NCBI GenBank assembly: GCA_003134045.1
Contig: PLAH01000077.1
Location: 1-64,000, forward strand
DNA: 64,000 nucleotides
Origin: Gammaproteobacteria bacterium
GTDB lineage: Bacteria > Pseudomonadota > Gammaproteobacteria > Steroidobacterales > Steroidobacteraceae
Direction of reading: 5' to 3'
Position numbers and translations under genes: made by a program. Each line of letters starts with the position of its first letter. Positions within the stretch are counted from its first letter, which is position 1. The notes under the pieces were generated by a model. The model ran no database searches. It was given only the letters and a program-made list of their open reading frames with translations, and was not told the DNA's origin. Positions 546-10,129 of this stretch are shown piece after piece.

Positions 546-1666
546 CGGGCCGCAGTGCCAGGGTGGTCGCGATCCTGCGAAGGCGCTCCGCGGACGGCCA
601 AGGCCGCCTGTGCGTTCGGAATAGTCTCGCGGGCTCGGAGATGCTCGAACGTGACGTTGCCGATCGCGTAGTCGTGCCAATCCTGGTAGTCGAAATGCCA
701 CCATTCTTCGGCATAGACCGCGAAGCCCTGCGCCTCCATGGCTGTGCGCAACAGATCGCGCAGGAAACGTTGGCGGCTCGTGCCGCCCGGAAAATCCGCG
801 AAGGAACGCGGCGACATTTCATCGTAGGATCCCGTCATCTCCACCGGCTTGCCGCTCGCCAGTTCGTACAGCGTCAAATCGACGGCGCAACCCCGATTGT
901 GGCGTGAGCCTTCGGCAGGGTCGGCAACGAAAATGTGCGCCGCTGCCGGCGTGGCATCCCAGAACATCTTGGTGACGAACCAGGGTCGGTATGCATCGTG
1001 TACCAATAGACCATAACCGCGGGGCGCCAAACTTTGCGCGGCGCGCCGCAGCGCTTGCGCCGCCGGGCGCTGCAGAAACGCCGCGGGCGTCTCGTACAAC
1101 GGAAACCCCATGAAGTTGTTCGACGTGGCGTAGCGAATGTCGAAGCGTATCGAAGAACCGAGGCTTGCGAGGTCGACCAAGTCCGTTGCGCGTTTCGGTG
1201 CGGGTTCGACGGGCGGCGTCGCCGCGAGCGCCTTCGCGCGCAATGCGCCCGCGTCGGCGCGGACGCTGGAACGAAAGTGCTCCACCGTATCCCGCCCGAT
1301 GTCGAGGCGCGGCAAACGTTTGTCCCCAACGTCGACATCCACGATTTCACGCAGTCCATCGGCGTCGAATTTCAGATGGACCGAGCGGTGCAGCCCCTTG
1401 CCGGCCTCGTACTCGATCGGCGACAAACGCCGCAGGGCGACGCGGGTCAATCCGTTACCGTCGGCAAAGAGCTGCCCGTCGGATTCATAGATGGTCAGCA
1501 ACGAGTCCGGCGCGCCGTATTCGCCCACCAGGCGTTTCAATTCAGGCGGTGCATCGAGCGGCGCCTGCGGGGTCCGCGCCGACGCGGCGGCGGCAACCGC
1601 GCCCGAATGCAGGAGTGCAAGCGCCATGCATACACCGAACGTCAATCGCGCAACGCTCCTCAGCAT
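542..1666 (-). CDS. D-alanyl-D-alanine dipeptidase, VanX/DdpX family, exported
   Basis: Zinc D,D-dipeptidase that would cleave D-Ala-D-Ala or similar peptidoglycan-derived dipeptides. The 374-residue product starts at MLRSVARL, giving a signal peptide over about residues 1-28; a longer reading back to 1774 adds an unlikely leader. Residues 40-120 form an extra beta-rich domain. The catalytic domain carries SxHxxGxAxD as SRHNRGCAVD (254-263) and EWWH (321-324), the known zinc and catalytic residues. VanX itself is about 200 residues, so this is an extended periplasmic form. It overlaps the downstream ROK kinase by four bases, which suggests a cell-wall or sugar salvage operon. Glycopeptide resistance is not implied, as no vanHA or vanRS neighbours are present. 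Confidence 0.88.
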   Translation of the reverse strand: MLRSVARLTFGVCMALALLHSGAVAAAASARTPQAPLDAPPELKRLVGEYGAPDSLLTIYESDGQLFADGNGLTRVALRRLSPIEYEAGKGLHRSVHLKFDADGLREIVDVDVGDKRLPRLDIGRDTVEHFRSSVRADAGALRAKALAATPPVEPAPKRATDLVDLASLGSSIRFDIRYATSNNFMGFPLYETPAAFLQRPAAQALRRAAQSLAPRGYGLLVHDAYRPWFVTKMFWDATPAAAHIFVADPAEGSRHNRGCAVDLTLYELASGKPVEMTGSYDEMSPRSFADFPGGTSRQRFLRDLLRTAMEAQGFAVYAEEWWHFDYQDWHDYAIGNVTFEHLRARETIPNAQAALAVRGAPSQDRDHPGTAAR

Positions 1667-1764
1667 CGAACCCAAGTAATGTTCCGAGTTCACTGCGCGC
1701 GTTCCAAGTACCTGCGTCGGCGATGGCCTGTTCGTAATTACCATGTCATCGATTCCTGCGCCAG

Positions 1765-1778
1765 CCCCTTTCAAGGGG
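1765..1778. promoter_or_regulatory. short perfect palindrome in divergent promoter region
   Basis: CCCCTTTCAAGGGG is a hairpin or operator with six-base arms. It lies between the dipeptidase start (1666) and the small plus-strand gene at 1894, in the only room for both promoters. It could be a regulator site; no regulator is identified. Confidence 0.3.
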
Positions 1779-1893
1779 TCGGTGCGGCTTGATCATGCCA
1801 ATTTGATCGAAAGTCAACCAAAACGGCGATAAATAGGGCCGCGCGCGACATGCGGCGCCGGTATGATGCGCGCTTCTCAACAGGAAGCAGTAA

Positions 1894-2085
1894 ATGGCAA
1901 AGAAGAAGCGACGTGTAGTAATAGCCTGGTCGAAAGACGATGTGAAGAATCTGCGCGGGTTCGCCAAGGCGAAGCTCTCCGGTACGCAAACGGCGAAAAA
2001 GCTCGGCCGTACGCCGGGCGCTGTCGCGCAGAAGGCGATGAAACTGGGCATCAAGTTTCGTTCCATCAAGCGCAAGGCCCGCTAG
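1894..2085 (+). CDS. small basic helix-turn-helix (SANT/Myb-like) protein
   Basis: 63 residues, very rich in lysine and arginine (MAKKKRR at the N-terminus, SIKRKAR at the C-terminus). The core WSKDDVKNLRGFAKAKLSG followed by TAKKLGRTPGAVAQKAMKLG looks like a SANT/Myb-type three-helix fold; the last helix resembles a DNA-recognition helix. Similar short proteins are common in Proteobacteria without a defined role. A Shine-Dalgarno-like AGGAAG lies about 10 bases before the ATG. It stands alone between a divergent gene and a decayed HAD gene. Nucleic-acid binding is inferred from charge and helix pattern only. Confidence 0.65.
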   Translation: MAKKKRRVVIAWSKDDVKNLRGFAKAKLSGTQTAKKLGRTPGAVAQKAMKLGIKFRSIKRKAR

Positions 2086-2106
2086 CAGCGCTGCCGACGC
2101 GCCGCA

Positions 2107-2275
2107 CGGGCGTTGGACCGCGGCAAGCCGTTCCCCGATCCCTTCCTGGAAGCGGCACGCCGGCTCGATGTGGCGCCCGAGGACTGCCTGGTGTTCGAGG
2201 ACAGCGACTCGGCATCGAAGCTGCGCGGGCGGCGGGGATGCAGCATGTGTTCGTGCGGCGCGGTTTGGGTCAGAA
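2107..2275 (+). pseudogene. HAD-superfamily phosphatase remnant, frameshifted
   Basis: A short relic of a beta-phosphoglucomutase-like HAD hydrolase. One frame reads GKPFPDPFLEAARRLDVAPEDCLVFEDSD, which is HAD motif III/IV; immediately after EDSD the expected continuation LGIEAARAAGMQHVFV is found in another frame, so a frameshift lies near 2208. The N-terminal nucleophile DxD motif and the C-terminus are missing, and the piece runs into the 3' end of nrdB on the other strand. Not functional. Confidence 0.7.
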
Positions 2276-3274
2276 TGCCCGATCGAACGCGACTTCACCC
2301 TGTACCGCGACTTGGTACGACGATACCCTGCGCTCGAAGAAATTGGTCAATTCCTGCACATCCTGCAATTCCATGAACGAGAATGGATTGCGCGAACCAT
2401 ATCGAATCGGCAGGCCGAGCATGGTCAGCCGTTGATCGGCGACATATTGGAGATACTCGCGCATTTCCCGACGCGTCAGTCCCACCACGCCGCCGGACAA
2501 CACGTCGTCGGCGAATGCCGCTTCGCATTCGACGGCTTCTTCGATCATCTGCAGCACCTGTGCGGCCCATCGTGCATCGAAAAGCGCCGGTTCCTCTTCG
2601 CGCACGGTCCGCAGCACTTCATACGCAAACGACATGTGGGCGCTTTCATCGCGAAACACCCAATTGGTGCCGGCCGCGAGCCCGGGCAGCAGGCCGCGCG
2701 AACGCAGGAAATACACGTACGCGAACGCACCGAAGAAGAAGAGGCCCTCGATGCAACTCGCGAAGCAGGTCAAGTTCAGCAGGAACCGCCGACGGTCGTC
2801 GGCGGTGGCGATTCGCCGCAAATCGACGACGGAGTCCGTCCAGCGCCGGCAGAACTCCGCCTTGCGCTGGATGGAAGGGCTGTTGTCGATGGCCGCGAAT
2901 GCCAGGGCGCGGGCGTCCTGATCCGGCACATAGTTGTCGAGCAACGTCAGGTAGAACTGCACGTGCAAGGCTTCCTCGTACAGCTGCCGCGACAGATACA
3001 TGCGAGCTTCCGGCGAGTTGATGTGCTTGTAGAGACTCAAGACCAGGTTGTTCGAGACGATGGAATCGCCGGTCGCGAAGAACGCGACCAAGCGCTCGAT
3101 CAAGTGCCGATCCGCGGGACTCATGCGGCGCTGGATATGGCTCAAATCGATCTGGAAATCGATTTCCTCGACGCTCCAGGTGTTCTTGATGGCCGCCCGA
3201 TACATCTCGTAGAATTTCGGGTACTGCATCGGCCGCAGCGTCAGGTTGAACCCCGGATCGAGCAGGCGCGTCAC
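2270..3274 (-). CDS. nrdB: ribonucleoside-diphosphate reductase beta subunit, class Ia
   Basis: Radical-generating small subunit of aerobic ribonucleotide reductase, 334 residues (usual 320-380). Di-iron ligands and the radical tyrosine are visible: D70, E101-x-x-H104 followed by Y108 (ExxHxxxY), E176 and E210-x-x-H213. The tyrosine supports a class Ia rather than class Ic enzyme. The start is GTG at 3274, overlapping the nrdA stop as GTGA, and gives the N-terminus TRLLDPGFNLTLRPM expected just before the conserved YPKFYEMYR. Translation is probably coupled to nrdA, and both should be under the cobalamin riboswitch at 5080-5255. Confidence 0.93.
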   Translation of the reverse strand: MTRLLDPGFNLTLRPMQYPKFYEMYRAAIKNTWSVEEIDFQIDLSHIQRRMSPADRHLIERLVAFFATGDSIVSNNLVLSLYKHINSPEARMYLSRQLYEEALHVQFYLTLLDNYVPDQDARALAFAAIDNSPSIQRKAEFCRRWTDSVVDLRRIATADDRRRFLLNLTCFASCIEGLFFFGAFAYVYFLRSRGLLPGLAAGTNWVFRDESAHMSFAYEVLRTVREEEPALFDARWAAQVLQMIEEAVECEAAFADDVLSGGVVGLTRREMREYLQYVADQRLTMLGLPIRYGSRNPFSFMELQDVQELTNFFERRVSSYQVAVQGEVAFDRAF

Positions 3275-5055
3275 TGGCAGGCCTCGCAAACCGCGGGATT
3301 TTCCAGGGAGCAGGCGGTCGCAGCCGAATCGGGTTCGGCCCCCGGCATGGGCTCTGCCACGGTGGTCTTCGCGATGCGCGTGGCCGGCCGCGAGCGCAGG
3401 TAGTACGTCGTTTTCAATCCCTGTTTCCAGGCATACATGTACATGCTGGACAGCTGGCCGATATTGGGATTCGCGATGAACAGGTTGAGCGATTGGCTTT
3501 GGTCGATGAACGCGCCGCGCGCCGCGGCCATTTCGATCAACGACTTCATGGGTAATTCCCATGCCGTGCGATAGATGTCCCGCAGTTCCGCGGGAATGGC
3601 TTCGAGCTGTTGAATGGAGCCGTCGGCGAGCTTGATCGCGTCGCGCATCCCGGCCGTCCACAGTCCCAGCTGTTTCAGTTCGTCGACGAGGTAGCCGTTG
3701 ATCTGCAGAAAGTCGCCGGACAACGTTTCGCGTTTGAACAGATTGGAGATCGGCGGCTCGATGCACTCGTAGCAGCCTGCGATCGACGCGATGGTTGCGG
3801 TGGGCGCGATGGCGATCAGCAGACTGTTGCGCAAGCCATGGATTTCGATTTCCCGGGCCAGATGGCGCCACCGCTCGGGATTCGTCGGGGTGGCGCCCCA
3901 GGCGTCGAACTGCAGCTCTCCGCGGGCCGCGCGAGTGTCGGCGAAGTTCGGGTGAGCGCCGTGCAGCCGCGCGAGTTCGTTCGAGGTGCGCAGGGTGTGA
4001 AAATACACGTCCTCGGAGATTTGCCGGGAGAGGGCGCGCGCGGGTTCGCTGTCGAAGGGCAGCCGTAGGCGGAAAAATACATCCTGCAGTCCCATCAAGC
4101 CTAGACCGACCGGGCGCCAACGCAGGTTCGATGCGCGCGCCGTCGCAATCGGATAGAAATTCAGATCGATGACGCTGTCCAGTTGCCGCACGGCGACTTC
4201 GACGGTGTGGGCCAGCTTCTCGAAGTCGAAGCCGGCTGCGCCGACATGCCTGCCCAAATTGATGGAGCCCAGATTGCACACCGCCGTTTCGCCCTGCGAA
4301 CTCACCTCGATGATCTCGGTGCACAGATTCGATAAATGCACCACGGCTCCGGGCTGCGCGGTTTGATTGCAGGCTCTGTTGGACTTGTCCTTGAAGGTCA
4401 TCCAGCCGTTGCCGGTCTGGGCGAGGGTGCGCATCATGCGCGCGTACAAGTCGCGCGCGGGCAGCGTCTTGCGGGCGAGTCCCTGCGCCTCGGCTTGGGC
4501 GTACGCGCGATCGAATTCCCCGCCATACACGTCGGGGAATTCAGGCACATCCTTCGGATCGAACAGCGACCAGTTCTCGCCGGCTTCCACGCGCTTCATG
4601 AACAGGTCGGGCACCCAATTGGCGACGTTCAGGTGATGCGCGCGTCGTGCGTCATCGCCGGTGTTGTCCCGCAGTTCGAGGAAGGCTTCGATATCGGCGT
4701 GCCAGGTTTCCAGATACACGCACGCGGCACCCTTGCGCTTGCCGCCCTGATTGACGGCCGCGACGGATGAATCGAGCGTCTTCAGCCAGGGCACGATTCC
4801 GTTAGACAGGCCGTTGGTGGAGCGGATGAGCGAGCCTTCGGAGCGGACCCGGTGCCAGGCGATGCCGATGCCGCCGGAGAATTTGGACAAGAGGGCGATG
4901 TCCTTGTATTTCTCGTATACCCCTTCGAGAGAGTCCGGCGGCGAATCGAGCAGGAAGCAGCTCGAGAGTTGCTCATGCAAGGTGCCCGCGTTGAACAGGG
5001 TGGGAGAGCTCGGCAGATAGTCGAGCCCCGGCCGCCCTTGCCACGAGAGCTCCAC
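3271..5055 (-). CDS. nrdA: ribonucleoside-diphosphate reductase alpha subunit lacking the N-terminal region
   Basis: Catalytic subunit that reduces NDPs to dNDPs with NrdB. The 594 residues keep every catalytic element: C33 and C260 (redox pair), N243-x-C245-x-E247 (thiyl radical site), Y551-Y552 (radical transfer, in KTTYY) and C-terminal cysteines at 582, 590 and 593. Homology starts abruptly at residue 14 (LPSSPTLFNAGT). Full NrdA proteins have about 200 residues before this point, including the ATP-cone, and even short forms have about 60. In the upstream frame there is a TAA only about 15 bases before the GTG start, and the riboswitch ends about 30 bases upstream. Either a deletion fused the leader to a truncated gene or this is an unusual short form. 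No clear Shine-Dalgarno is visible. Confidence 0.85.
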   Translation of the reverse strand: MELSWQGRPGLDYLPSSPTLFNAGTLHEQLSSCFLLDSPPDSLEGVYEKYKDIALLSKFSGGIGIAWHRVRSEGSLIRSTNGLSNGIVPWLKTLDSSVAAVNQGGKRKGAACVYLETWHADIEAFLELRDNTGDDARRAHHLNVANWVPDLFMKRVEAGENWSLFDPKDVPEFPDVYGGEFDRAYAQAEAQGLARKTLPARDLYARMMRTLAQTGNGWMTFKDKSNRACNQTAQPGAVVHLSNLCTEIIEVSSQGETAVCNLGSINLGRHVGAAGFDFEKLAHTVEVAVRQLDSVIDLNFYPIATARASNLRWRPVGLGLMGLQDVFFRLRLPFDSEPARALSRQISEDVYFHTLRTSNELARLHGAHPNFADTRAARGELQFDAWGATPTNPERWRHLAREIEIHGLRNSLLIAIAPTATIASIAGCYECIEPPISNLFKRETLSGDFLQINGYLVDELKQLGLWTAGMRDAIKLADGSIQQLEAIPAELRDIYRTAWELPMKSLIEMAAARGAFIDQSQSLNLFIANPNIGQLSSMYMYAWKQGLKTTYYLRSRPATRIAKTTVAEPMPGAEPDSAATACSLENPAVCEACQ

Positions 5056-5079
5056 AGCCGAACGGCAACGTTAACGATG

Positions 5080-5255
5080 CCGATCGCGGCAGGTCTTCGG
5101 ACTTCCGGGCGCGCGGCCAAGATGTGGCCGGTTGTCTACTGGATGCCGCTTCCCAATCGTGAACACTCACGGATCAGTGCCAATGGCATCGTTCGTTCCC
5201 AGTTACCGCTGCGGGGCAGTTCCGGATTCGAACCGGATTCCATTTTAGGTCTAGT
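5080..5255 (-). promoter_or_regulatory. cobalamin (B12) riboswitch upstream of nrdAB
   Basis: Reading the minus strand, the conserved blocks occur in order: GGAATCCGG..GAATCCGGAACTG, then CCCCGCAGCGGTAA (the B12-box region), GGCACTG, GGGAAGCGG, and the closing AGTCCGAAGACCTGCC. This is the AdoCbl aptamer pattern. It is followed by TGCCGCGATCGGCA, which can fold and may form part of the expression platform. B12 riboswitches in front of class I nrdAB are known in bacteria that also own the B12-dependent class II enzyme NrdJ; B12 then turns the class I genes off. The exact ends are approximate. Confidence 0.9.
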
Positions 5256-5353
5256 TGTTGTGCTAGACACCGCGACGGGGCACAAGATATGGGGTTTGGT
5301 GGGAAAGGTCAACGATCTTTAGTTGTAGCGATCCTAGCGGTCTGCTTTCGCGT

Positions 5354-5758
5354 CTACGCTCGTGGATCGTCGAGATCTGCGATGAACAGTCGGTCGATTC
5401 GACCGTCCTTGACGGCGACGCCCTCCGCGCGCAACCGCTGTGCCTGTTCCCGGTGTTGCCGCGAGGCCTTCGGAAACACGATGCGGCCGCCGGCGCCGAC
5501 CACGCGGTGCCATGGGACGTTCACGTCTCGTGGCGCCATCCGCAGCGCGAAACCGGCCAACCGCGCGCGGCCCGGCAGACCGGCGGCTCTGGCGACGGCC
5601 CCATACGTCGAAATCTGGCCGCGGGGAATCGCACACACCACGTCCCAGATTGCCTGAAGCGCGGGATTCTCAGCGGCCGCCGGCGATCGGCGTGGCCGCG
5701 AACGGCCGGTTCTGGACGGCAGGAACAATTCCGAGAATGACTTGCCGGAGCGGCGCAT
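5354..5758 (-). CDS. alkyltransferase-like (ATL) protein, MGMT family
   Basis: 134 residues with the O6-alkylguanine-DNA alkyltransferase fold: AIPRGQISTYGAVARAAGLPGRARLAGFALR is the recognition-helix region. The usual active-site PCHR is PWHR here (VPWHRVVGAGGRI). Tryptophan in place of the acceptor cysteine defines ATL proteins such as E. coli YbaZ, which bind alkylated guanine and hand it to nucleotide excision repair without repairing it. The start at MRRSGKSFSELF is chosen because longer starts run into the divergent polymerase gene. Only 70 bases separate it from the start of DNA polymerase II, suggesting shared damage-responsive control, though no LexA box was recognised. Confidence 0.85.
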   Translation of the reverse strand: MRRSGKSFSELFLPSRTGRSRPRRSPAAAENPALQAIWDVVCAIPRGQISTYGAVARAAGLPGRARLAGFALRMAPRDVNVPWHRVVGAGGRIVFPKASRQHREQAQRLRAEGVAVKDGRIDRLFIADLDDPRA

Positions 5759-5828
5759 AAGCGGCGTATGTTGGCCGCGAAGGACGAACTTGTCACCCCC
5801 TGCAATCCACGCGCCACAACCGGCCCGG

Positions 5829-8198
5829 ATGGCGCAAAATGCCGCCGTGACCCAGTTCCGCGGCTTCATTCTTCAAGCAAGTTATCGCGTGGTCGCCCGA
5901 GCGGGCGGAGAACGCGTTCCCGTCATCCACCTCTACGGCCGCTTGGAGACCGGCGAGACGTTTCTGGTACGCGACGATCGGCAGCGGCCACATTTCTATA
6001 TCCGCGCCGCCGACGCCGATCGGGCGCGTCAGGTCAGCGGATGCGAGCCGAACGTCGCCGGCAGACAGACCTTCGACGGCGCGCCCGTCAGTGCGATGTA
6101 CGTGGATGTCCCGCCGGACGTGCCTCCCGTACGCGATCGCCTGCACGCCGCCGGCGTCGACACGTTCGAGGCCGATGTGCGCTTCCCCATCAGGTATCTG
6201 ATCGAACGCGGCGTCAAGGGAGGGTGCGAGATCGACGCCGAACCCGTGCCGGGAACCGGGGTAACCTGGATATTCGACAATCCGTCGCTCGCGCCCGCCG
6301 CCGTCAAGATCGAACCGCGCGTGCTGTCGTTCGACATAGAAACCGACGGCAAGGCCGAGCGCTTGCTGGCGATCTCGATATATGCGCCCGGCGTCGACGA
6401 GGTATTGATCGTGGACGGCAGCGAACGCGCCATGCCCGCTCATGCGATTCGTTGCACGGATGAGTTCGCGGCATTGCAGGCCTTTTGCGACCGCGTTCGA
6501 TCGATCGATCCCGACGTGCTGACGGGCTGGAACATCATCGATTTCGACCTGTCGGTATTGCAGCGGATCGCCGGCCGCGTTCGCCATCCGTTCCTCCTGG
6601 GGCGGGATTCGGGAGCCCTCAGGATTCGCAAGGCGGAGGGCTTCTTCGGCAGCGGGCAGGCCAATGTGCCGGGCCGGCTGGTGCTCGACGGCATCGATCT
6701 GTTGCGCGGCGCGTTCGTGCGCATGGACGAGTATTCGCTCGATGCCGTGGCGCGCGAGGTTCTCGGCGAGGGCAAGGCGGTCGCCGGGGATGTGCGCGAT
6801 CGCATCGCCGAGATCACTCATAACTATCGTCACGATCTCGCGGCGTTCGCGCTCTACGCGCGAACGGATGCGCGGCTGGCCTACGAGATCCTACAGAAGC
6901 TCGATCTCGTGCGCCTCGCCTATGCCCGCAGCCAGCTCGCCGGCATGACGCCGGATCGGGTGGCCGCCAGCATTGCGTCGTTCGACTTTCTCTATCTGAC
7001 TGAACTCGGCAAGCGGCATGTCGTCGCGCCCACCGTGCGCTCGGATGACGCCGATGTCCACGCCTTGCAACAAGGCGGTCATGTACTCGAGCCCATCAGC
7101 GGCTTGCACGGCAATGTCTGGGTGTTCGATTTCACGAGTCTGTACCCGAGCATCATTCGTACCTTCAACATCGATCCGCTCTCCTATGTGGCCGACCCCG
7201 GAGCGGACGCCGACCTGATTCGCACGCCCGGCGGCGCATTTCGGCGTGAGCCGGCAATCCTGCCGCAGATGCTCGACGAATTGTTTCCCCGGCGCGAGGC
7301 GGCCAAGCGAATTGGCGACGCTGTGGCGTCGAACGCCATCAAGATCCTGATGAATTCGTTCTACGGCGTACTGGGCACGCCCGCCTGCCGTTTCTATAAC
7401 CCGGCCCTGGGGAATTCGATCACCGGAACGGGCCGTGAAGTCTTGTTGTGGTCGAAGCGCTGGTTCGAGGCGGCGGGTTTCAACGTGCTGTACGGCGATA
7501 CGGACAGTCTATTCGTTCATTCTCACAGCAGCGACGCCCACCAGGCCCTCGACCAAGGTCGCCGGCTCGCCGCCGCCCTGAACGGCGAACTCGCGCACCA
7601 CATCGGCGAACGCTGGAGAGTGTCCAGCCGGCTGGAACTGAAGTTCGAGAAACTGTATCTGAAATTGTTTCTGCCGCGGGCGCGGCACAGCACGCGCGGC
7701 GCCAGCAAGCGTTACGCGGGCCTGCGCCACGGTGCCGCCATCGACAGTCTCGAGTTCGTCGGCATGGAGGTGGTGCGCCGGGATTGGACGCTGCTTGCCA
7801 AGCAGGTGCAACGCGAGCTCTATGAACGGCTTTTCACGGATCAGGCCGTCGACGTCTATCTTGCCGACGTGGTGACGCGGGTGAGGAACGGTCGATTGGA
7901 TGACGCGCTGGTCTATCGAAAAAACCTGCGCAAGGACGAGGCGGATTATACCGCGACGACTCCGCCGCATGTGGTCGCCGCCCGCAAGTCGACGCAACCG
8001 CTGGGCCGCTCGATCAGCTATGTGATGACCACGGCCGGTCCCGAGCCGACAGACAATGTACGGCATCCGCTCGATCGCGAACATTACGTGCTGAAGCAGA
8101 TCAAGCCCGTATCCGAACCCGTGCTGGCGGCGCTGGGCCTCGATTTCGAGCGCGTCATCGGCGATAGCCGGCAGATCGACTTGTTCGCCGATGTCTAG
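5829..8198 (+). CDS. polB: DNA polymerase II (family B)
   Basis: 789 residues, close to E. coli Pol II (783). Proofreading exonuclease motifs: D169-x-E171 (SFDIETDG), the ExoII motif NIIDFD (about 234-239) and an ExoIII-like YARTDARLAYE (342-352). Polymerase motifs: A DFTSLYPS (433-440), B KILMNSFYG (about 504-512) and C YGDTDS (554-559). The enzyme restarts forks and bypasses lesions. The start at MAQNAAVTQFRGF matches the family N-terminus; a start 87 bases upstream would overlap the divergent ATL gene. The gene converges on the FTR1 gene, and the stop codons overlap by three bases. Confidence 0.95.
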   Translation: MAQNAAVTQFRGFILQASYRVVARAGGERVPVIHLYGRLETGETFLVRDDRQRPHFYIRAADADRARQVSGCEPNVAGRQTFDGAPVSAMYVDVPPDVPPVRDRLHAAGVDTFEADVRFPIRYLIERGVKGGCEIDAEPVPGTGVTWIFDNPSLAPAAVKIEPRVLSFDIETDGKAERLLAISIYAPGVDEVLIVDGSERAMPAHAIRCTDEFAALQAFCDRVRSIDPDVLTGWNIIDFDLSVLQRIAGRVRHPFLLGRDSGALRIRKAEGFFGSGQANVPGRLVLDGIDLLRGAFVRMDEYSLDAVAREVLGEGKAVAGDVRDRIAEITHNYRHDLAAFALYARTDARLAYEILQKLDLVRLAYARSQLAGMTPDRVAASIASFDFLYLTELGKRHVVAPTVRSDDADVHALQQGGHVLEPISGLHGNVWVFDFTSLYPSIIRTFNIDPLSYVADPGADADLIRTPGGAFRREPAILPQMLDELFPRREAAKRIGDAVASNAIKILMNSFYGVLGTPACRFYNPALGNSITGTGREVLLWSKRWFEAAGFNVLYGDTDSLFVHSHSSDAHQALDQGRRLAAALNGELAHHIGERWRVSSRLELKFEKLYLKLFLPRARHSTRGASKRYAGLRHGAAIDSLEFVGMEVVRRDWTLLAKQVQRELYERLFTDQAVDVYLADVVTRVRNGRLDDALVYRKNLRKDEADYTATTPPHVVAARKSTQPLGRSISYVMTTAGPEPTDNVRHPLDREHYVLKQIKPVSEPVLAALGLDFERVIGDSRQIDLFADV

Positions 8199-10129
8199 GT
8201 AGCAGGGGTCGCGCCGCGCCGGTTGACGAAGAAGGCGATAATCACGATCGACAAGATCAGCGCCTGTGCGCCCAGCGATTGCTGCGACGGAAACACGCCA
8301 AGCCAGTCGATTCGCGGAAATGCCACGGATGTCGTGGCAAGCCACCCCGCCTCCTGCAGGGCCTGCATTCCCTTGCCGGTGAGAACCAGCGCCAGAATCA
8401 CGATGAGCAGGGAACTCGCCGCGAAGAAAGTACCGATGGGGAGCCGGCGACTGGTCCGCAACAATATCCACGCCACGGCCACCAGTGCGATCGTTCCCGC
8501 CAAGAGTCCCGCGCCGATCGCGGTCTTTTGGCCCTCGGTCCAGAGCGCCGCATAGAACAAAATCGTTTCGAACACTTCGCGGTAAACGGCAATGAAGGAC
8601 AGCCCAAATAAGAACATCATGGACCGGCGATCGAGTGCCGCGGAGAGTTTGGCGCGCAAATACGCCTGCCAGCGGCCGCCGACACTCTTCTGATGCATCC
8701 AGATGCCAACGCCCAGCAGGACGATGGCCGCGAATAGCGAGGACACTCCTTCAGTGACTTCCCGGCTAGCCCCGCTGACCGCGATGACGTAGGTCGCCAC
8801 CGCCCACGTCGCCGCACCGGCCGCCAACGCCAGCATCCACCCCAGGTGCACGTAGCGCACGGCATCGTTCCGCTGTGCCTTGCGAAGGAACGCGATCATC
8901 GCGACCACGATCAACAATGCCTCCAGACCTTCGCGCACCAGAATGGTAAACGCGCCGAGAAAGGCGGTGGCCGGTGTTGCCTCGCTTGCCGCGAGTTCTT
9001 GATCGGTGGAGTCGAGCAAGCGCTTCAACTCGGCCGCCTGGGCCGTCACGGCGTCGGAGGCGTGATCGAGGATGGCGGTGCGATACTGCGCCATGTGCAT
9101 TTCCAATTGAACGAGCAGAGTGTCGTTTCGAGCCGCCAAGACGGGTTCGATCGGCTCGATGCCGTCGAGATACGCCGATAATGCCAAGCGTGCGGCGTCC
9201 TCCGCTCGGCCGTTCCGATACGCAGCCATGCTCGCGGCCAATCGCGTGCGCGCCAGCGCGATGCCCTGCGGACCGGTCGCGAGCGCTTGCGGATGGCTGC
9301 GCAAATAGCCTAAGGCTGCTGCGGCGTCGGCGGCGCCGAGAAGCGGTGTCCATTGATCTTCACGACCTCGGACCAACGCGCTTAGATCCGGCACATGTGC
9401 CCGCAGCGCGGGATTCTGTCGCCATCGAGCTTCGCCGGCGTCGGCATAGGGCGCGTACGCGAGGCTGCCGGCATAGAACGCCACCGCCCATCGATCCGCC
9501 GTGCTGAGCTGTGGAAAGCCCGGCATGGCGGTACCAGATATGCCGCGGGTGACCGCCTGGTAGAGCGACAGCACGCTGCGCTCGGCAGCCCGCGTGCGAT
9601 CGGTGAAGTCCACCGGTCGGGGTTGCAACTGAGCGCCGACCGGACCATCCCCATGCCCCTCGGCGCCGTGGCATCCGGCGCAGGTGCCCGCGTAGAGACG
9701 TGCACCGCGTGCCAGATCCGGCGCAGCGAGCGGTGCGGTCGGAATAGGGTAGGCGACCAGCAGAGCGTCGGCGAGTGCATGCGCCTGCGTCGCTACCACG
9801 TCGGAGCCAGCCTTATCGGCGATGCTTCGTGCCAGGCGCTCGGCGGCCTCCTGAAGTGTGGGAGACGCCGGTACCGCAGGCAGGGATCGGAGTTGCGTAC
9901 GAACGGTTTGCGCAAACTCCGTCATTTCCGCATATTCGGAAGCGCTCACAACCTTGCCGTCGGCGACCGCTCCTCGGTAATCGTCGGCCAGATAATCGAG
10001 AATTTGCCACGTCTGCGACGCCTGCTCCACGGGCTCGGGCGGGGTGGCGCCGACATTCACGTCCCCTGCACGTGCTGGGACGGTGATCCAAGCACACAGC
10101 ATGCTTATGACAATGAGAAGCGTTCGCAT
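8195..10129 (-). CDS. FTR1-family iron permease with N-terminal cytochrome c domain
   Basis: 644 residues. A signal peptide (1-21) is followed by a helical region and a c-type haem site CAGCH (150-154) with a likely axial methionine in GTAMPGF. The C-terminal half (about 395-640) is the FTR1 permease with about seven membrane helices and two REXXE iron motifs, REGLE (about 405) and REVFE (about 515). FTR1 permeases move ferric iron across the inner membrane, coupled to oxidation of ferrous iron; the fused cytochrome could take those electrons. Such cytochrome-FTR1 fusions are known in Proteobacteria. No Fur box was recognised. The gene is apparently monocistronic and convergent with polB. Confidence 0.9.
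   Translation of the reverse strand: MRTLLIVISMLCAWITVPARAGDVNVGATPPEPVEQASQTWQILDYLADDYRGAVADGKVVSASEYAEMTEFAQTVRTQLRSLPAVPASPTLQEAAERLARSIADKAGSDVVATQAHALADALLVAYPIPTAPLAAPDLARGARLYAGTCAGCHGAEGHGDGPVGAQLQPRPVDFTDRTRAAERSVLSLYQAVTRGISGTAMPGFPQLSTADRWAVAFYAGSLAYAPYADAGEARWRQNPALRAHVPDLSALVRGREDQWTPLLGAADAAAALGYLRSHPQALATGPQGIALARTRLAASMAAYRNGRAEDAARLALSAYLDGIEPIEPVLAARNDTLLVQLEMHMAQYRTAILDHASDAVTAQAAELKRLLDSTDQELAASEATPATAFLGAFTILVREGLEALLIVVAMIAFLRKAQRNDAVRYVHLGWMLALAAGAATWAVATYVIAVSGASREVTEGVSSLFAAIVLLGVGIWMHQKSVGGRWQAYLRAKLSAALDRRSMMFLFGLSFIAVYREVFETILFYAALWTEGQKTAIGAGLLAGTIALVAVAWILLRTSRRLPIGTFFAASSLLIVILALVLTGKGMQALQEAGWLATTSVAFPRIDWLGVFPSQQSLGAQALILSIVIIAFFVNRRGATPAT

Follow-up and report, generated by a model that had tools for sequence, protein, structure and literature searches.

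The minus strand of the window, the 64,000-nucleotide stretch of DNA analysed here, carries a complete cobalamin riboswitch followed by a class I ribonucleotide reductase operon in which the alpha subunit gene, nrdA, lacks its start and its N-terminal domains. We put at roughly 0.68 the probability that this reflects a true deletion of about 0.8 kb with loss of nrdA function, such that the riboswitch controls a defunct nrdA and the class II reductase is relied on instead. The features of the locus and its nearest neighbours are as follows.

5071..5289, minus strand: complete cobalamin riboswitch aptamer (RF00174, 95.1 bits, model positions 1-189 of 189)
5027..5070, minus strand: first 44 nt of the expression platform, homologous by blastn to the platforms of loci L007 and L008
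5026..5027, minus strand: putative deletion junction, lacking 764 bp relative to L007 or 820 bp relative to L008, from two blastn blocks per relative
3271..5026, minus strand: nrdA remnant with the barrel domain (PF02867, 635 bits) and the C-terminal CEAC motif, without ATP cone and with the all-alpha domain undetected
2270..3229, minus strand: nrdB, class I beta subunit, 319 aa, frame intact (PF00268, 254 bits)
5354-5869, minus strand: methylguanine methyltransferase-like gene, divergent from the family B DNA polymerase
5742-8198, plus strand: family B DNA polymerase

A sequence-only reading of this DNA had placed a B12 aptamer on the minus strand at 5080-5255, and the aptamer is real. The cobalamin model matched at full length from 5289 to 5071, enclosing the proposed span, at a score well above the cut-off of 31.5 bits and far beyond what chance would yield (E 2.1e-22); the covariance-model search that had been proposed as a check thus returned a match rather than none. 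This was the sole match at gathering score when the whole window was scanned against all Rfam families with cmscan. The riboswitch lies on the same strand as the nrdA remnant and nrdB, directly 5' of them, and is predicted to bind AdoCbl and change expression. Short pieces of the platform, when folded, gave z values of 0.09, -1.31 and -1.75. Two further cobalamin riboswitches (L001 and L003) were seen in the same genome, 5' of a periplasmic binding protein and a TonB-dependent receptor, gene contexts that would fit B12 uptake.

The same reading took the genes behind the switch for a class I reductase, which holds for the family of both genes; it missed that the first is truncated. The open reading frame is listed as 3271-5055 on the minus strand, with a GTG start inside the riboswitch platform 15 nt past the aptamer. 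HMM scores assign it to the class I alpha subunits (TIGR02506, 667 bits, cut-off 341), and it stays below the cut-off of 400 for the class II model NrdJ_Z (318 bits). The TIGR02506 match begins only at position 60. Pfam searches found the barrel in the window protein, and neither the N-terminal all-alpha domain (PF00317) nor the ATP cone of the subfamily (PF03477); all three were found in the NrdA proteins of L007 and L008. These two loci are the orthologues in the same-genus genomes G018 and G008, respectively, to which the window is 88% and 85% identical in NrdA and 92% and 84% identical in the amino acid sequence of NrdB. The SSC, NLC and CEAC motifs, which have a catalytic role in NrdA, are retained.

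With L007 and L008 as references, the missing segment could be delimited closely. Against L007, blastn returned one block at 476-741, covering aptamer and platform (84%), and a second at 1506-3261, from within nrdA onward (80%); against L008 the blocks fell at 413-682 and 1503-3187. In the window the two blocks abut at 5027|5026, the platform block stopping at 5027 against L007 and at 5028 against L008 (76%), where one base lies between the blocks, whereas the relatives separate them by 764 and 820 bp. The nrdA start, the ATP cone and the larger share of the all-alpha domain fall within the segment absent from the window. The loss amounts to about 217 N-terminal codons, if the first ATG of L007 (position 856) is its start. 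In each of the 80 loci of a wider set (L036-L115), the frame stays open for 207 codons or more 5' of the reductase match; the frames of L039, L062, L063 and L069 among them reach a contig edge. By eye, a possible short upstream frame sits right behind the platform in L007 (742-834, ATG) and L008 (684-716, GTG), and such a frame was not seen in all relatives.

Could the junction be an artefact of assembly or binning, or of mixed strains, in which case the riboswitch would precede a full-length nrdA and the locus would work as first described? The assembly is a draft of 197 contigs (96.8% complete, 6.3% contaminated), which speaks for an artefact, as do the undecayed nrdA remnant and the open frame of nrdB. 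However, the 120-base stretches around the two breakpoints (60 bases either side) have no word longer than 7 bases in common in either L007 or L008, so repeat collapse is no ready explanation; this comparison uses the breakpoints of the two relatives. Furthermore, the missing N-terminal part had no match on any contig of the window's own genome at E values up to 10. The same query matched G008, G018 and G028 at 2.2e-105 or better; it had no match in G023, where the nrdA match begins at a contig end, and none that was convincing in G025 or G031.

The remnant itself shows no sign of decay, in that substitution is not accelerated and no invariant column is changed. Over the 576 codons that the window shares with both orthologues, private amino acid changes number 20 in the window and 21 in G018, and private synonymous changes 70 and 88. 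None of the 200 columns invariant across 81 other sequences is altered in the window. Of 267 columns conserved at 97%, 4 are altered there, while the other sequences have a median of 1 and at most 10, L007 having 3 and L008 having 1; L065, a copy of L008, and the incomplete L009 and L010 were omitted from this test. A long-dead gene would look worse, so the deletion is either recent or not real. Taken with the breakpoint and contig searches, these patterns suggest a recent loss, an assembly fault being the less likely; we regard an artefact as doubtful, with odds well short of even.

Translation of the remnant is likely to be poor, because an in-frame TAA lies at 5073, the GTG is a weak start and no ATG occurs before codon 153. 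Five codons separate the TAA from the GTG at 5055, which is the sole start-type codon ahead of the shared core, and by eye no Shine-Dalgarno-like sequence was seen in the 20 nt before it. Thereafter TTG occurs at codons 26 and 56, and the ATG at codon 153 is the first. We found no plausible translation start for NrdA, and the product would miss the PF00317 domain, which even the class II NrdJ of the same genome has.

A truncated NrdA that works as a short alpha subunit, started from GTG 5055 or another weak codon and free of ATP-cone control, would account for the kept catalytic motifs, the unchanged invariant columns and a substitution count that is not raised. We nevertheless hold it to be very improbable, since the all-alpha domain is present in L007, L008 and the class II enzyme alike, all 80 loci of the wider set read on upstream, and by eye no Shine-Dalgarno-like sequence precedes the GTG. 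Three further candidates were rejected. A restart giving a normal-length NrdA is ruled out by the in-frame TAA and the want of a good start; an N-terminal part encoded elsewhere, as in a split gene or at a contig end, had no match in the window's own genome while the controls G008, G018 and G028 were positive; and the model of a naturally short NrdA subfamily (NF006577, 604 aa) matches L007 from residue 155, across the all-alpha region that is absent from the window. In a bolder version, which we think unlikely, a true recent deletion fused a working B12 switch to a bare NrdA barrel, caught either during loss of class I, with full B12 dependence for DNA precursors, or on its way to a short, cone-less, riboswitch-controlled reductase.

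Reliance on a class II reductase presupposes that the genome has one. The sequence-only reading had predicted an nrdJ gene outside the window, and a genome search located it on contig C29, with an NrdJ_Z score of 570 bits against a cut-off of 399.95; the absence of a class II gene, which would have spoken against that reading, was thus not what we found. The gene is followed by a separate small TSCPD-domain gene. No match to the class III enzyme NrdD was obtained in this genome. Within the genus, NrdJ scored over the cut-off in 20 of 23 genomes, the window's own included (G011, G013 and G014 fell below), and it was matched in all 13 genomes with at least 90% completeness and at most 5% contamination. 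Its identity to the window genome's copy is 95% in G018 and 91% in G008, compared with 88% and 85% for NrdA. A close NrdA (86% or more), on the other hand, was found in only 3 of the 23.

The pairing of switch and class II gene extends to wider relatives. We surveyed the 50 genomes reached from loci L036-L085 of the wider set, with a riboswitch scan whose stricter filters lose weak matches. A riboswitch lies 5' of nrdA in 34 of the 50, with 571-890 bases from the aptamer to the start of the TIGR02504 match, and 38 have a class II score above the cut-off. Switch and class II occur together in 32 genomes, neither occurs in 10, the switch alone in 2 and class II alone in 6 (Fisher p 4e-5, n=50, relatedness uncorrected); 32 of the 34 relatives with a switch before nrdA therefore have a class II gene. 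Against a strict pairing stand G060 and G100, with a switch and no class II over the cut-off, and the six genomes in which class II occurs without a switch; three of their loci (L062, L069 and L074) have less than 700 bp upstream of the match. Fewer than 820 bases, too little to reveal a switch, precede the match in those three and in L039 and L063; without these five loci the counts become 32 with both, 8 with neither, 2 with the switch only and 3 with class II only (p 3e-5). Partial NrdJ_Z matches occur in the genome of L039 (G063), which was scored as lacking class II and has two of them on different contigs, and in that of L063 (G087), which has one. Six Stenotrophomonas genomes (G067, G068, G070, G076, G077 and G083; loci L043, L044, L046, L052, L053 and L059) had neither a class II score above the cut-off nor a switch ahead of nrdA; all six show a weak partial NrdJ_Z match in a frame of 824-923 aa.

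In the 34 switch loci of this survey (L036-L085) we also observed a short hairpin with a GNGG loop, some 45-50 nt past the GACCTGCC of the aptamer; its 3' side often carries GGGGAG, which resembles a Shine-Dalgarno sequence. It keeps a nearly fixed distance from the aptamer, and its stem letters vary between loci with pairing kept. At least five pairs form in 25 of 36 rows, a set to which the window and L007 belong, against about 6 expected from mononucleotide shuffles, the rows being related and that of L037 misplaced. Fewer than five pairs form in the window, L007 and L065.

Riboswitch, nrdA and nrdB sit together among different genes in each genome, like an accessory unit. Homology between the window and the 19.9 kb regions of G018 and G008 extends from roughly 5298 to roughly 2266, or from the riboswitch to the end of nrdB. 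None of six other window ORFs was found in those regions, G018 and G008 have only the riboswitch and nrdAB in common with each other, and no neighbour common to the cassette was detected across the three genus genomes that have it. An empty-site comparison used five same-genus genomes matching the family B polymerase; it defined no clean empty site. A methyltransferase-like gene lies within about 1.5 kb of the polymerase in four of the five (G016, G021, G013 and G017), and nrdA and nrdB had no match in the five polymerase-region stretches. As separate observations, the divergent methyltransferase-like/polymerase order of the window recurs only in G016, four of the five polymerase matches in the other genus genomes contain one or two internal stops, and window 8195-10129 (minus strand) joins an FTR1-family iron permease and a cytochrome c domain in one frame.

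Under the deletion reading that we prefer, riboswitch, nrdA and nrdB would form a compact cassette for an accessory class I reductase made only when adenosylcobalamin is short, and the core class II NrdJ would serve when B12 is present. One deletion event of some 0.8 kb, beginning 44 nt past the aptamer and reaching nrdA codon 217 or thereabouts, would have taken with it the start site, the ATP cone and the greater part of the N-terminal all-alpha domain. The switch would probably still be transcribed and responsive to its ligand, but it would control a defunct nrdA, and the organism would rely on the class II reductase alone. Because the start codon and about 217 N-terminal codons are lost beside the switch, it probably no longer has a functional class I reductase to control.

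These results support, beyond the well-studied case, that a B12 riboswitch before a class I reductase goes with a class II gene elsewhere in that genome. Among the members of this genus, the class I operon under such control appears as a patchy accessory in varying places. The deletion, if true, would offer a snapshot of a B12-independent backup being lost from a lineage turning B12-dependent. The locus also carries a warning: an open frame that follows a convincing riboswitch match need not be a working gene.

Among known systems, the two-gene arrangement on C29, a class II gene with a separate TSCPD gene, is that of Pseudomonas aeruginosa NrdJab. In that species B12 reportedly causes a slight drop in nrd expression that does not depend on regulation by a B12 riboswitch (PMC5962746), whereas here a riboswitch precedes nrdAB. 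Close counterparts are the riboswitch-nrdAB operons of relatives, L036-L038 among them, with L007 and L008 homologous in aptamer, platform start, nrdA barrel and nrdB. Unlike the window, L007 and L008 retain between aptamer and reductase match a stretch containing the nrdA start and ATP cone, and the 34 surveyed relatives keep a comparable distance. A cobalamin riboswitch reportedly belongs to the class Ia nrdABS operon of Streptomyces coelicolor. It controls that operon, and class II nrdJ is present alongside it in the genome, as described in PMC4991794 (citing Borovok et al. 2006, J Bacteriol 188:2512). The window is alike in its cobalamin riboswitch 5' of class I nrdAB, and its genome in having class II nrdJ; unlike in that operon, nrdA here lacks the start and N-terminal domains. 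The locus in relatives looks like the Streptomyces system, from which the direction of control, B12 shutting the class I operon, would be carried over by analogy. The parts of the open-licence literature that were searched held no report of a riboswitch fused to a truncated nrdA. The type of switch is thus a known one, and the deletion is the single new point, making this member of the family unusual and probably defunct.
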